Shown here: positions 2,924 through 19,876 of the stretch, in pieces
Position numbering within the stretch: the stretch's first letter is position 1
Layout: each line of letters starts with the position of its first letter
Assembly: GCF_000004825.1 (NCBI RefSeq)
Contig: NW_008805085.1
Span: 930,001-994,000, forward strand
Length of the DNA: 64,000 nt
Source of the DNA: Heterostelium album PN500
Lineage: Eukaryota; Evosea; Eumycetozoa; Acytosteliales; Acytosteliaceae
Direction of reading: 5' to 3'
Translations under genes and position numbers: made by a program
Notes under the pieces: generated by a model
Database searches by the model: none
The model's input: the letters and a program-made list of their open reading frames with translations, nothing else
What the model was told of the DNA's origin: nothing

Positions 2924-4988
2924 CTAATCACTTTGTTGTTGATCAATCTCTTTTTTCTTCTCTCTAATCCACTCATTTGCCAGCTCTCTGTCAGGAATCG
3001 ATAATGAGTACCAAGTTTGTCCTGAATGTTTTTCCCACTGGAAAATGAAATAGATACACTCGTTTATTAACATCAAAAAATAAAATAAAATACTTTAATA
3101 TATTATAACTTACCATTCTGACATCTTTCACTGAAAACATTCTAGGTTCATAACTAGATTTATTAAACTTTTTATTATGTTGGGCTTTAAAAATATTGGT
3201 ATACCAATTAAATAAAAGTCAGTTAATTTAATAATTTAATCAATTCATTCTTTTTAAGAATAGAATAGCTTTGCAAAAACTTACCAAGTAATGCTTTCAA
3301 ACTATCATCCATATCATCGTCTTTTTTAGATGATTTCGAAGTTGTTGTTGTTGTTTTCTTGGGTTTAATTACAGGTGGTTTATTGGCAGTGGTGGTGGTT
3401 GTTGTTTGTGTTGCTATTGGTTTGTGTAATGTTGTAGGTTTTAAAAGAGGTTTTGCTGAAAATGGTGGTTTTGTTATTGTTGATGTTGTTGTCGTAGAAC
3501 AATGTGAATTCGAATCTTCCTTCTTTGAGGATAGTGTTGTTGTTGTTGTTGATACAATGTTAATATTATTTTCCTTATTATTTAAACTAAATCTCTTGGT
3601 TCTATCACTATTTATATTTAAACTTGATCTCTTTAAAGTTGTTGTTGATTTATTGGTTGTTCCAACACCACCACTATATATTGGCTTTAATAAAGATGAT
3701 GATGTTGTTGATGATGATGATGGTGTAGTTGAGTTTGGTGGTGTTAAAATTTTAGAAGATCTTCTTATACTACTAATTCTCTTTCCCATACTATTCTTTG
3801 GTGTTATATTATTATTATTATTATTGTTGGTATGAGTATTGCTACCTAAATCATTCTCATTACCTATATTACTACTATTATTATTATTGCTATTACTATT
3901 ATTACTATCTAATATTCGTTGTTTTTCGTGTAATGGATGTGTGAGAGAAAACCAATCATTCAGTTCACTCTCTACTTTTTCATCGTATGTAAATGTATCA
4001 CCTTTCAGTAGATTGATTTGCTCAGACCAATTGACACTAGTATTGCTGCTGGCTTCGCTATAACTATTTTGTTGGTCATCGATGTTTGATATTTGGAAAT
4101 CAAAGAACTGTGGTGCATCAAACTCGAATGCATTATCCATATTCTCTGTATTGGAAGAGGAGGTGGAAGAGGAGGTGATAGTACTACCAGAGCCAGAACC
4201 AGAACTGCCAACACTACTACTACTACTTCCTCTTCTCCTAATACTATTTAAACTACTATATTTACTCTGACTACCACCACCACCACCAGTCATAGTACTA
4301 GTATTGATCTGACTATGATGATTGCTACTATTAATATTTGGTTTATTCTTTGTAACTATGGTGGTTGTACTACTGCTGCTACTATTGGTAGTTGTAGTTG
4401 GAATAACATTTGATTTCATTTCATTTATAAAATTCCAATGACTTTGCAAAGTACTAACTAATATAATAAATAAATAAATATTTAAATTTCAAATAAATAT
4501 AAATATTGTAAATAAAGGTAATATTTAATAATGTGATTGATCAGAACATCACTCACTGTGTCAAAGGCAAATTAAAAAATCATTTTAATTTTTAAAAAAA
4601 CATGAATGAACCGTTACAAAAATTTTAAATTCAAAAAAAAATTTGAAAAAGGGCGTCAAACCAACTAACATTATTGAATTGACTGACTGTGAAGCTCCTC
4701 AAACCAAATAAAATAAAATAAAATAAAAGATGAGCCAATATCACTGCAACTTCAAAATAAATACATACTTTAAATTTGTTTCTTAAAAAGATCTTTATCT
4801 AATAAAACAATTTTTTTTTCAAATTCATTACAAAACTAATATTAATTGCTCCTCAATGGCACCATTATATTGTTGGTCTTATTTAAAATAAAACTATAAC
4901 CCGATTGGCTATTTTAATTGTATATATATTCAAATTACATTAATCAAATAGAAAATGAGATATGAATGAAATCTTACCATTGTCTCAT
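2924..4988 (-). CDS. Low-complexity protein with a conserved C-terminal segment, function unknown
   Basis: Model on the minus strand: exons 4988-4978, 4453-3285, 3184-3114 and 3037-2924 (454 residues). The last three exons join in frame with good consensus sites. The 11-nt first exon and the 524-bp first intron are the weakest part; translation could instead start at the internal ATG at 4419. Residues up to about 380 are dominated by Ser, Thr and Asn runs and are probably disordered. The last 80 or so residues are different: a DDSLKALL helix, then HNKKF, SYEPR, SVKDVRMWE, WYSLS and ANEWI elements, which look like a small conserved eukaryotic domain I cannot name with certainty. No signal peptide or membrane segment is seen. 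Confidence 0.65.
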
Positions 4989-5365: not shown

Positions 5366-6468
5366 ATGGATAATGATGTTAAATATTTAGCAAACAGTTT
5401 GAATATTGTGGTGGATGACGATGAAATCATAGAGGAGAACTTGCGATATGAAGTACAACAACAACAACAGAAACTAAAGATGACACCCTTGCATCAACAA
5501 CAGATGCAATCGAAGGACATCAACGATCCACAACGTGTGGTTGACACAGTGTTGAAGACGGTGGTCGATGTGTTCCGCGATTGTATCGAGCGTATCGATA
5601 ATGGCGCGGCGAAAGACGCCATCGATCTGTTCCAACCATATATTTCAGAGGAGCAATTCCGTTCGCTGCGTGACATGTCACAGAAGATCAGTGGCGATGC
5701 CGCACAGCAACTCGATTGCGTCAACGAGACGATGCTCGCCGCCAACCTCAACAACTACTTGATGCCACAGGGTGTCGCTGCCAAGCTCACCAAGCTCAAA
5801 GCCGCCAAGTCGCTGCCACGTCAGGCTGCACCGATCCACATTAATAAAGCTGCATCGTACAACTCCAATGGACAGCCAGCAACTGGTGGTGGTAGCAGCG
5901 GTGGTTCGTCTTCGCGTCGTCGTGAGAGCAAAGAAGGATTCCCTCTCAATATGGGTGCGATCATTGGAATGGCAGCCAACATGAATCTCGATCAGATCAA
6001 ATCGATGATGAACGTACTGATCATGATCCTCACACACACACCAATCCCAGTGATTCTCAGAGAGTTCCACCGATTCCGTATGCTCACCTCTGTATTTTTC
6101 GATCTCATTGTAGCGATCTACCGTTTCGACGTCAAAGAAATCGCATCACTCTTAATCATCACCATACTCAACGTAATCTCATTCATGAACAAGAAAGATA
6201 AAAATTTAATCACTGGTAAGATCGATCGCTCAGACATAACTAATTGTAAAAACAACTAACTAACTATCATTCATTTATAACAAACGAAATAGCGGTCTCT
6301 GTTGCTAAATATATTCATAGTTTTGGAAATAAGAAGAGATTTGGATTTTTGAGATTGTCAACTCTTATTCTCTATCTTTCATACCTCTACAAAGTAATCA
6401 ATCCACCACCCATGACACCATCAGATCTTATTAACTTTGCAAAAGCTTACATGGCATCAAAACTATAA
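5366..6468 (+). CDS. Multi-pass membrane protein, function unknown
   Basis: Exons 5366-6215 and 6293-6468 join in phase 1 (GTAAGA donor, AATAG acceptor) to give 341 residues. The first 55 residues are acidic and then Gln-rich. Residues 55-160 form soluble helices, followed by a Gly/Ser and Arg/Glu linker. From about residue 205 come several hydrophobic stretches: one with MNVLIMIL, one with VFFDLIVAIY, one with SLLIITILNVI, and in exon 2 one with STLILYLSYLY. This suggests a membrane-embedded C-terminal half. The central exon has a noticeably higher GC content and C-ending codons, typical of conserved dictyostelid coding sequence. I do not recognise the family; a peroxisomal or ER membrane protein is possible but unsupported. 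Confidence 0.8.
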
Positions 6469-18848: not shown

Positions 18849-19320
18849 ATGGATAACTCTTATATTACCAGTAAGCTATTACATTACAACTCATAATTAT
18901 GAATCGGTTACAGTATACTAATAATTTCGATTTTCATTAACTATCTAGAGGATGGTAGGGTAGCACAGAAGACAAATTGGAGGCTATCGATCATTTCCGA
19001 CTATTTTTGGTATTTTTTAAATCAAATCGTATTTTTGTAAGTATTTTTGTTGAATCTAACAAACAAAACCAACAAAAGATCTATATTCTCATTTTATTAT
19101 TACGTCTATTAAACATTACTATAGTTTTGAAACACTCTTTTCGGACCCTGCAACTGAAAAATATAAAAAGAAGCATGGCGATAGAGATAGAAACTATTTA
19201 GGTTGGAATAATGGAAATGGTGGTGGAGGAAACGGAGGAGGTGGTGGAGGTGGCCCTAGAATAAGAACACTTAATCAAGTCGGAAAGGCATGTAGTCCGA
19301 CTGTAGGGTGAGCCAGATAA
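18849..19320 (+). CDS. selk: Selenoprotein K, with an in-frame TGA read as selenocysteine
   Basis: Exons 18849-18870, 18949-19036 and 19125-19320 join in phases 1 and 2. The product has 101 residues with TGA at 19309-19311 read as Sec99, followed by Ala-Arg and TAA. SelK is a small single-pass ER membrane protein involved in ER-associated degradation and palmitoylation. Supporting features, in order: a short luminal start MDNSYITKDGRV; WRLSIISDYFW, which matches the SelK signature WRLS-x-I-x-D-FFW; a membrane span of about residues 21-42; a charged segment; and a long Gly-rich tail with PRIRTLNQVGKACSPTVG then U-A-R. Human SelK likewise has Sec two residues from its end. A SECIS-like hairpin lies downstream at 19552-19596. 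Read as a stop, TGA would remove only three residues. Confidence 0.9.
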
Positions 19321-19323
19321 ACA

Positions 19324-19429
19324 GTCTAGTGCTTAATTAAGCAATTACATTATTGATGTCAAAATTGAACTACTCGTCGTTTTAAATACCGGTACTGACA
19401 ATACAAACTTCAATAATGATGCACTAGAC
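19324..19429 (+). other. Two-stem inverted repeat directly after the SelK stop codon
   Basis: Two perfect 9-bp arms nest here. GTCTAGTGC at 19324-19332 pairs with GCACTAGAC at 19421-19429, and CATTATTGA at 19348-19356 pairs with TCAATAATG at 19410-19418. A further TGTCA at 19357-19361 can pair with TGACA at 19396-19400. It begins three bases after the stop codon of SelK. It lacks an obvious ATGA/GA SECIS core, so it may be a separate structured element in the 3' untranslated region, possibly helping Sec recoding or mRNA stability. Confidence 0.5.
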
Positions 19430-19551
19430 ATTTCGGTAGTTTCGACTTAGTTGATTTCTGGTGGTAAAAGAGCGATCGATATCATTCAACTGACAACAAC
19501 ACAAAACAACTTGTTATCAAATGCAATCAATCAAACTTTACAACTAGAGTG

Positions 19552-19596
19552 ATGATATTTAATATCTTAACCTCAAACAGGCGATATTAGATTGAA
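19552..19596 (+). promoter_or_regulatory. SECIS-like element in the SelK 3' untranslated region
   Basis: ATGA (19552-19555) and TGA (19593-19595) flank a 10-bp helix, 19557-19566 with 19583-19592, containing one G-T wobble. The base of the helix can form the SECIS quartet: T53-A96, G54-A95, A55-G94 and T56-T93 (last two digits of 195xx). An AA at 19569-19570 lies unpaired on the 5' side. CCT (19571-19573) can pair with AGG (19579-19581) to make a short upper stem, as in form 2 SECIS elements. The distance from ATGA to AA (13 nt) and from the TGA codon (about 240 nt) are in the usual range. Helix I below the core is weak as drawn by eye. Confidence 0.8.
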
Positions 19597-19876
19597 AAAT
19601 TCATCTAATCGAACTATCAAATTCACAACTCCCACGATTCACATATGTAAATGAAAATCAATCAAATGAATACATAGTAAAAACAATTATTATTTCTTTC
19701 TAAAGCAAATAAATCTGAAAAAAGATAAATGTAATTAAATATTATATATATATATAAACAAATTTGTCATATGACATCTAATAATTTATTGATCAAATGC
19801 CAACTATATTAATTTATATTAAATTTTAAGATAAAAAGAAAATAAAAAGATAAATTAGATTAGATTAGATTTCTAT

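Follow-up and report, generated by a model that had tools for sequence, protein, structure and literature searches.

The window analysed here is a 64-kb stretch of DNA (C24:930001-994000) within a 32.9-Mb assembly of 39 contigs, and has a G+C content of 32.5%. Its plus strand carries a gene of three exons and two GT-AG introns, as read by splicing and translation of the sequence, which is flanked upstream by an NAD-dependent epimerase/dehydratase gene and downstream by an SPX-domain gene on the opposite strand. The spliced frame, MDNSYITKDGRV...TVG-TGA-AR-TAA, is open up to an in-frame TGA at 19309-19311, after which it continues with GCC AGA TAA (Ala-Arg-stop), and its product has 101 residues when the TGA is counted as residue 99. 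Using Cys typed in place of the TGA, the protein matches the Pfam profile SelK_SelG (PF10961) with 67.4 bits (cut-off 23.3; E 1.8e-18) over residues 5-80, i.e. across both exon joins, and this locus accounts for the one PF10961 match reported in the assembly. A prior reading of the same DNA, made from its letters alone (the sequence-only reading), had described a three-exon plus-strand selenoprotein K (SelK) gene with an in-frame TGA ahead of Ala-Arg-TAA, and its exons, introns and frame are as found here. The coordinates of these and other features are collected in Table 1.

Table 1. Features of the SelK locus (window positions) and of the two glutathione peroxidase genes (positions in locus L061).
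Feature	Position	Strand	Details and evidence
SelK exon 1	18849..18870	+	22 bp, start ATG; MDNSYIT + 1 nt; splice and translation
Intron 1, GTAAGC...CTATCTAG	18871..18948	+	GT-AG, inferred from sequence
SelK exon 2 (KDGRVAQKTNWRLSIISDYFWYFLNQIVF..), hydrophobic span	18949..19036	+	translation, profile match
Intron 2, GTAAGT...CTATAG	19037..19124	+	GT-AG, inferred from sequence
SelK exon 3 with Gly-rich tail, predicted Sec codon and stop TAA 19318-19320	19125..19320	+	translation
In-frame TGA, predicted Sec codon (residue 99/101)	19309..19311	+	translation
Inverted repeat / long branched hairpin	19324..19429	+	arms 19324-19339/19414-19429, 88% complementary
Type II SECIS element	19546..19600	+	structural pattern, R1 covariance model, alignments
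SECIS core 5' strand AUGA	19552..19555	+	pattern, R1 alignment
Helix II, 10 bp, 19557-19566/19583-19592	19557..19592	+	model, RNAfold
SECIS apical loop UUAA, unpaired	19567-19570	+	enclosed by helix II
SECIS mini-stem CCU/AGG, 3 bp	19571-19573/19579-19581	+	model, RNAfold
SECIS core 3' strand UGA	19593..19595	+	U19556.U19593 mismatch, tandem G.A
AATAAA, possible poly(A) signal	19708..19713	+	3' of SECIS
GPx1	about 3214-4081 of L061; SECIS 4197-4257		TGA at active-site codon, NTASF-U-GMT
GPx2	about 5255-6133 of L061; SECIS 6241-6302		TGA at active-site codon, NTATF-U-GMT

The protein has a single, modest hydrophobic stretch at residues 18-47, whose best 19-mer averages 1.25 by Kyte-Doolittle hydropathy. 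Its tail is rich in Gly and Asn, with 13 Gly within residues 59-83, and at the codon level the predicted Sec lies two residues from the end, which is the layout of the family. A PDB search with the protein returned 48 weak matches, the best at 0.008 and none of them named SelK; by name these range from viral glycoproteins, antibodies and receptors to further proteins with no relation to it, and they were set aside.

The sequence-only reading had also pointed to a hairpin about 240 nt past the TGA. This hairpin has the right geometry for a type II SECIS element: AUGA, which is 243 nt from the TGA codon, stands opposite a GA core, and beyond it come a helix of about 10 bp, an AA-containing loop and a mini-stem, with one C between the mini-stem and the 3' strand of helix II. 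RNAfold returns the same helix and mini-stem as well as a four-pair helix I, GAGU/AUUC. The U-U mismatch of the Dictyostelium type is present right after the core (U19556/U19593), while the Dictyostelium-type UGUA is absent and AUGA is preceded by GAGUG. The 3-bp mini-stem went unmentioned in the sequence-only reading.

In order to gauge this hairpin statistically, a type II SECIS pattern and a covariance model were used. The pattern, which was written after the hairpin had been seen, has one match on the two strands of the window, namely the SelK hairpin; it finds none in 2000 shuffled copies of the 1-kb 3' region and on average 0.0067 per shuffled window strand (150 shuffles), and it recovers 4 of the 6 SECIS found in the genome. 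The covariance model, R1, was built from the Sep15 SECIS alone, one sequence entered twice, with SelK held out. When R1 is run unfiltered on both window strands, the SelK hairpin ranks first of 35 matches (E up to 10) with 21.2 bits, ahead of a runner-up at 16.4 bits; its E of 0.0039 is rough, as it comes from a one-sequence model. A top match placed at random among the 128,000 strand positions would fall inside plus-strand 19312-19750 with a chance of about 0.0034. The absence of any SECIS from the 3' region, one of four outcomes that the sequence-only reading had named as refuting it, did not occur.

Some results are less strong or point the other way. On short stretches, R1 gives 21.2 bits to SelK, 12.7 to the SPS2 SECIS and 11.8 to the deiodinase-like (DI) SECIS; since an antisense match to Sep15 outscores the latter two with 13.8 bits, R1 scores near 12-14 mean little, with SelK at 21.2. 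R1 with its default speed filters does not report the SelK hairpin. Rfam gives no SECIS match at this hairpin, lists no SECIS family among the matches for SPS2, Sep15 or DI, and at the gathering threshold places no SECIS in the loci holding the SPS2, Sep15, DI and glutathione peroxidase (GPx) genes. The folding energy of the SelK hairpin lends the element no strong support: it is mildly low, with z -1.89, and 12 of 200 shuffled sequences fold as well.

Several further genes in the genome carry in-frame TGA codons. The SPS2 gene (L019, C14:553500-559500) reads KG-TGA-GCKIPQ and has a SECIS at 3564, so that selenophosphate synthetase SPS2 is predicted to be a selenoprotein itself. The Sep15 gene likewise has an in-frame TGA. 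Two tandem deiodinase-like genes lie on the minus strand of L018 (C39:88000-96500) at 4233-4898 and 5673-6359, one with TGA (CGSYT-U-PPFR) and the other with Cys (CGSFTCIPFR) at the same place. In SPS2, Sep15 and DI, the TGA gene is in each case followed by a type II SECIS starting UGUA-AUGA-C. Finally, L061 (C15:62500-70500) holds a tandem pair of GPx genes (Table 1), both with an apparent signal peptide as judged by eye; the four pieces reported in a genome search with PF00255 all fall within this pair, and each gene is followed by a type II SECIS. These two elements, neither of which had gone into the model used to score them, reach 47.2 and 44.2 bits. At 0.01, Pfam gives no match for the SPS2 and Sep15 N-terminal fragments or for one GPx C-terminal fragment, and the identity of the SPS2, Sep15 and GPx fragments lacking a Pfam match rests on other searches made here.

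The six SECIS were compared on a common structure. MAFFT misplaced the helices of these short sequences, and for this reason the model was built from Sep15 alone and the other SECIS were aligned to it; being fitted to the Sep15-model structure, the resulting alignments (A8 and A9) give pair counts that lean towards that structure. With this leaning, 96.2% of cells are paired among the SelK, SPS2, Sep15 and DI elements, and 11 of the 13 pairs are changed on both sides; once the two GPx elements, which were not used in the model, are added, all 13 pairs are changed on both sides, and sliding the partners by 1-3 columns lowers pairing to 37-43%. The SelK element shares with those of SPS2, Sep15, DI and GPx the AUGA/UGA core, a helix of 10-11 bp, the NUAA apical loop (6/6) and the mini-stem. 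It differs from them in lacking UGUA, which precedes the core in the other five, and in that the core is followed by U.U where they have C.U. The UGUA count is biased: the pattern that located both GPx SECIS requires UGUA, and DI was picked out through a TGTA listing; the structural scan that yielded SPS2 and Sep15 had no such requirement. Further SECIS lacking UGUA would thus have been missed.

Other scans of the genome gave the following. Looser structural scans produced many chance matches around other genes. The pattern TGTAATGAC... has 21 matches, 17 of them distinct and scored for helix pairing; the five with at least 8 of 11 pairs are Sep15, SPS2, DI and the two GPx, and the rest have at most 7. 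The pattern TGTAATGAT... gave 79 rows, of which 67 were scored; the 12 left out were one row that overlapped another and copies that were identical or nearly so. With a one-base offset, 4/67 reach 8 or 9 of 10 pairs, and by eye none of these was taken for a SECIS. As a separate observation, five identical 58-base matches to the SECIS pattern occur on one contig (C5:955467, 1057034, 1064777, 1072220 and 1076224); they have only 4 of 11 helix pairs and represent repeated sequence, not SECIS.

The machinery for Sec insertion is encoded in the same genome. A tRNA-Sec gene at C29:51810-51895 scores 66.5 bits with RF01852 (cut-off 47), a model that also matches in 14/14 control genomes and exceeds the cut-off in 5 of them; its anticodon, read by eye, is UCA. 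SepSecS is found in two pieces (1.1e-62 and 5.8e-56). The eEFSec gene (L017, on C14) has two frames that match EFSec chain 5izk_A at 1.8e-30 and 3.3e-52, and in both this chain ranks ahead of SelB chain 4ac9_A. The SBP2 gene (L035, on C28) matches chain 7zjw_B, SECIS binding protein 2, at 6.9e-25, with no second PDB match at an E of 0.01 or less. The SelB profile has no match over the genome at its own cut-off; its best match, L010, is probably a mitochondrial EF-Tu and was rejected in favour of L017 as the eEFSec gene. PF08433, which PSTK shares with KTI12, has 8 matches in the genome and does not separate the two. With tRNA-Sec, SepSecS, eEFSec, SBP2 and SPS2 found, the genome can be expected to insert Sec. 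The sequence-only reading had called for a search of the genome for tRNA-Sec, SBP2, EFSec and SPS2, and had named a missing tRNA-Sec as an outcome that would count against it; all four are there, SPS2 with a UGA codon of its own.

Taken together, the SelK identity, the position of the TGA, the SECIS geometry and the machinery genes support the recoding of this TGA as first proposed, and we consider it highly probable (roughly 0.92) that the locus is a SELENOK gene of the SelK/SelG family, in a dictyostelid-like amoeba, whose UGA is decoded as Sec by means of a type II SECIS in the 3' UTR. Genome size, base composition and the SECIS signature all suit a dictyostelid. According to this reading, the mRNA would be spliced from three exons, and the SECIS, about 240 nt downstream of the UGA, would bind SBP2, which would bring eEFSec with Sec-tRNA-Sec to the codon. 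The ribosome would then insert Sec99 instead of stopping, and translation would end two residues later at TAA, leaving a chain end of Sec-Ala-Arg. The product would be a small single-span membrane protein of the ER with a disordered, Gly-rich cytosolic tail. Sec insertion, residence in the ER and a part in its quality control are attributed to the product by analogy with the known families.

A second structure lies near the codon. The inverted repeat begins 12 nt past the TGA, directly after the stop codon, and the folding of 19312-19440 is of marginal significance (z -2.19; 4 of 200 shuffles as good); the repeat may serve to enhance recoding or may have arisen by chance. Together with the absence of UGUA, this separate hairpin makes it conceivable that decoding of SelK is controlled differently from that of the other selenoproteins of this amoeba, and Sec insertion here may be conditional, under separate control through a weaker SECIS and a local recoding hairpin, which we regard as rather unlikely.

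The absence of UGUA also bears on a reading in which Sec has been lost from SelK: translation would truly stop at the UGA, the protein would have 98 residues and end in SPTVG, and the hairpin would be the remnant of a SECIS in decay. UGA does serve as a normal stop codon, decay of the element would account for the missing UGUA, and SelK alone lacks it among the 6 SECIS found by a search biased to that motif; however, the core, the 10-bp helix with all its pairs, the UAA loop and the mini-stem are intact, the Ala-Arg-TAA end fits the family's layout of Sec plus two residues, and the remaining Sec machinery is present, all of which makes such a loss very improbable. Least probable of all is that the hairpin arose by chance because the 3' sequence is AT-rich, and that SelK uses another SECIS or none: the small folding z and the rough E of a model made from one doubled sequence would allow it, but the first rank of the hairpin at that low chance of random placement, the lack of any other match to the strict pattern in the window and the architecture shared with five other SECIS argue against it.

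Human SELENOK ends in Sec-Gly-Arg. The amoeba protein, read as a Sec-containing SelK, would differ from the animal one in its last residues, Sec-Ala-Arg, and in its Gly/Asn-rich tail. One account (PMC6555942) presents SELENOK as a small protein of the ER that crosses the membrane once, carries Sec close to its C-terminus and belongs to the ERAD complex; the predicted amoeba product would likewise be small, probably with one span and with Sec close to its end, and it matches Pfam SelK_SelG. When UGA decoding fails, truncated SelK is reported to end in di-Gly and to be destroyed through KLHDC2 (PMC10767929). A UGA-terminated product of the present gene would instead end in Val-Gly, and so the KLHDC2 route need not apply to it.

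Closer comparisons come from D. discoideum, for which SelK, SPS2, Sep15, MSP and DI were listed as selenoproteins in 2007 (Lobanov et al., PMC2375036). All SECIS of that species are described there as having UGUA before the core, a U-U mismatch after it and AAA in the bulge. The present gene is like D. discoideum SelK in being a social-amoeba SelK selenoprotein gene with a type II SECIS and the U-U mismatch, and differs from the SECIS as reported, by description and not by sequence, in having GAGUG before AUGA and a UUAA loop. The same paper states that D. discoideum SelK was undetected by 75Se labelling (PMC2375036), and in another study the only tRNA-Sec gene of that species seemed to be under constitutive repression throughout the social cycle (PMC13063481); strong expression in this relative is on both counts less to be expected.

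In the literature covered, in which subscription journals are mostly missing, we found no published description of this SelK gene or of a dictyostelid Sec-GPx. Since SelK has been known as a social-amoeba selenoprotein since 2007, the present gene is well supported as a further predicted example with one small variation, the missing UGUA. The tandem pair of Sec-GPx genes is the more surprising by-product: GPx is outside the five selenoproteins reported for D. discoideum, and the table published in 2007 has no mark for it under that species (PMC2375036). The locus adds another amoeba SelK, found beside the main genes for Sec insertion. With two Sec GPx present, the selenoproteome of this lineage would not simply be the D. 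discoideum set, and a natural SECIS without UGUA, in a genome whose other SECIS found here keep it, would make the role of this motif testable.
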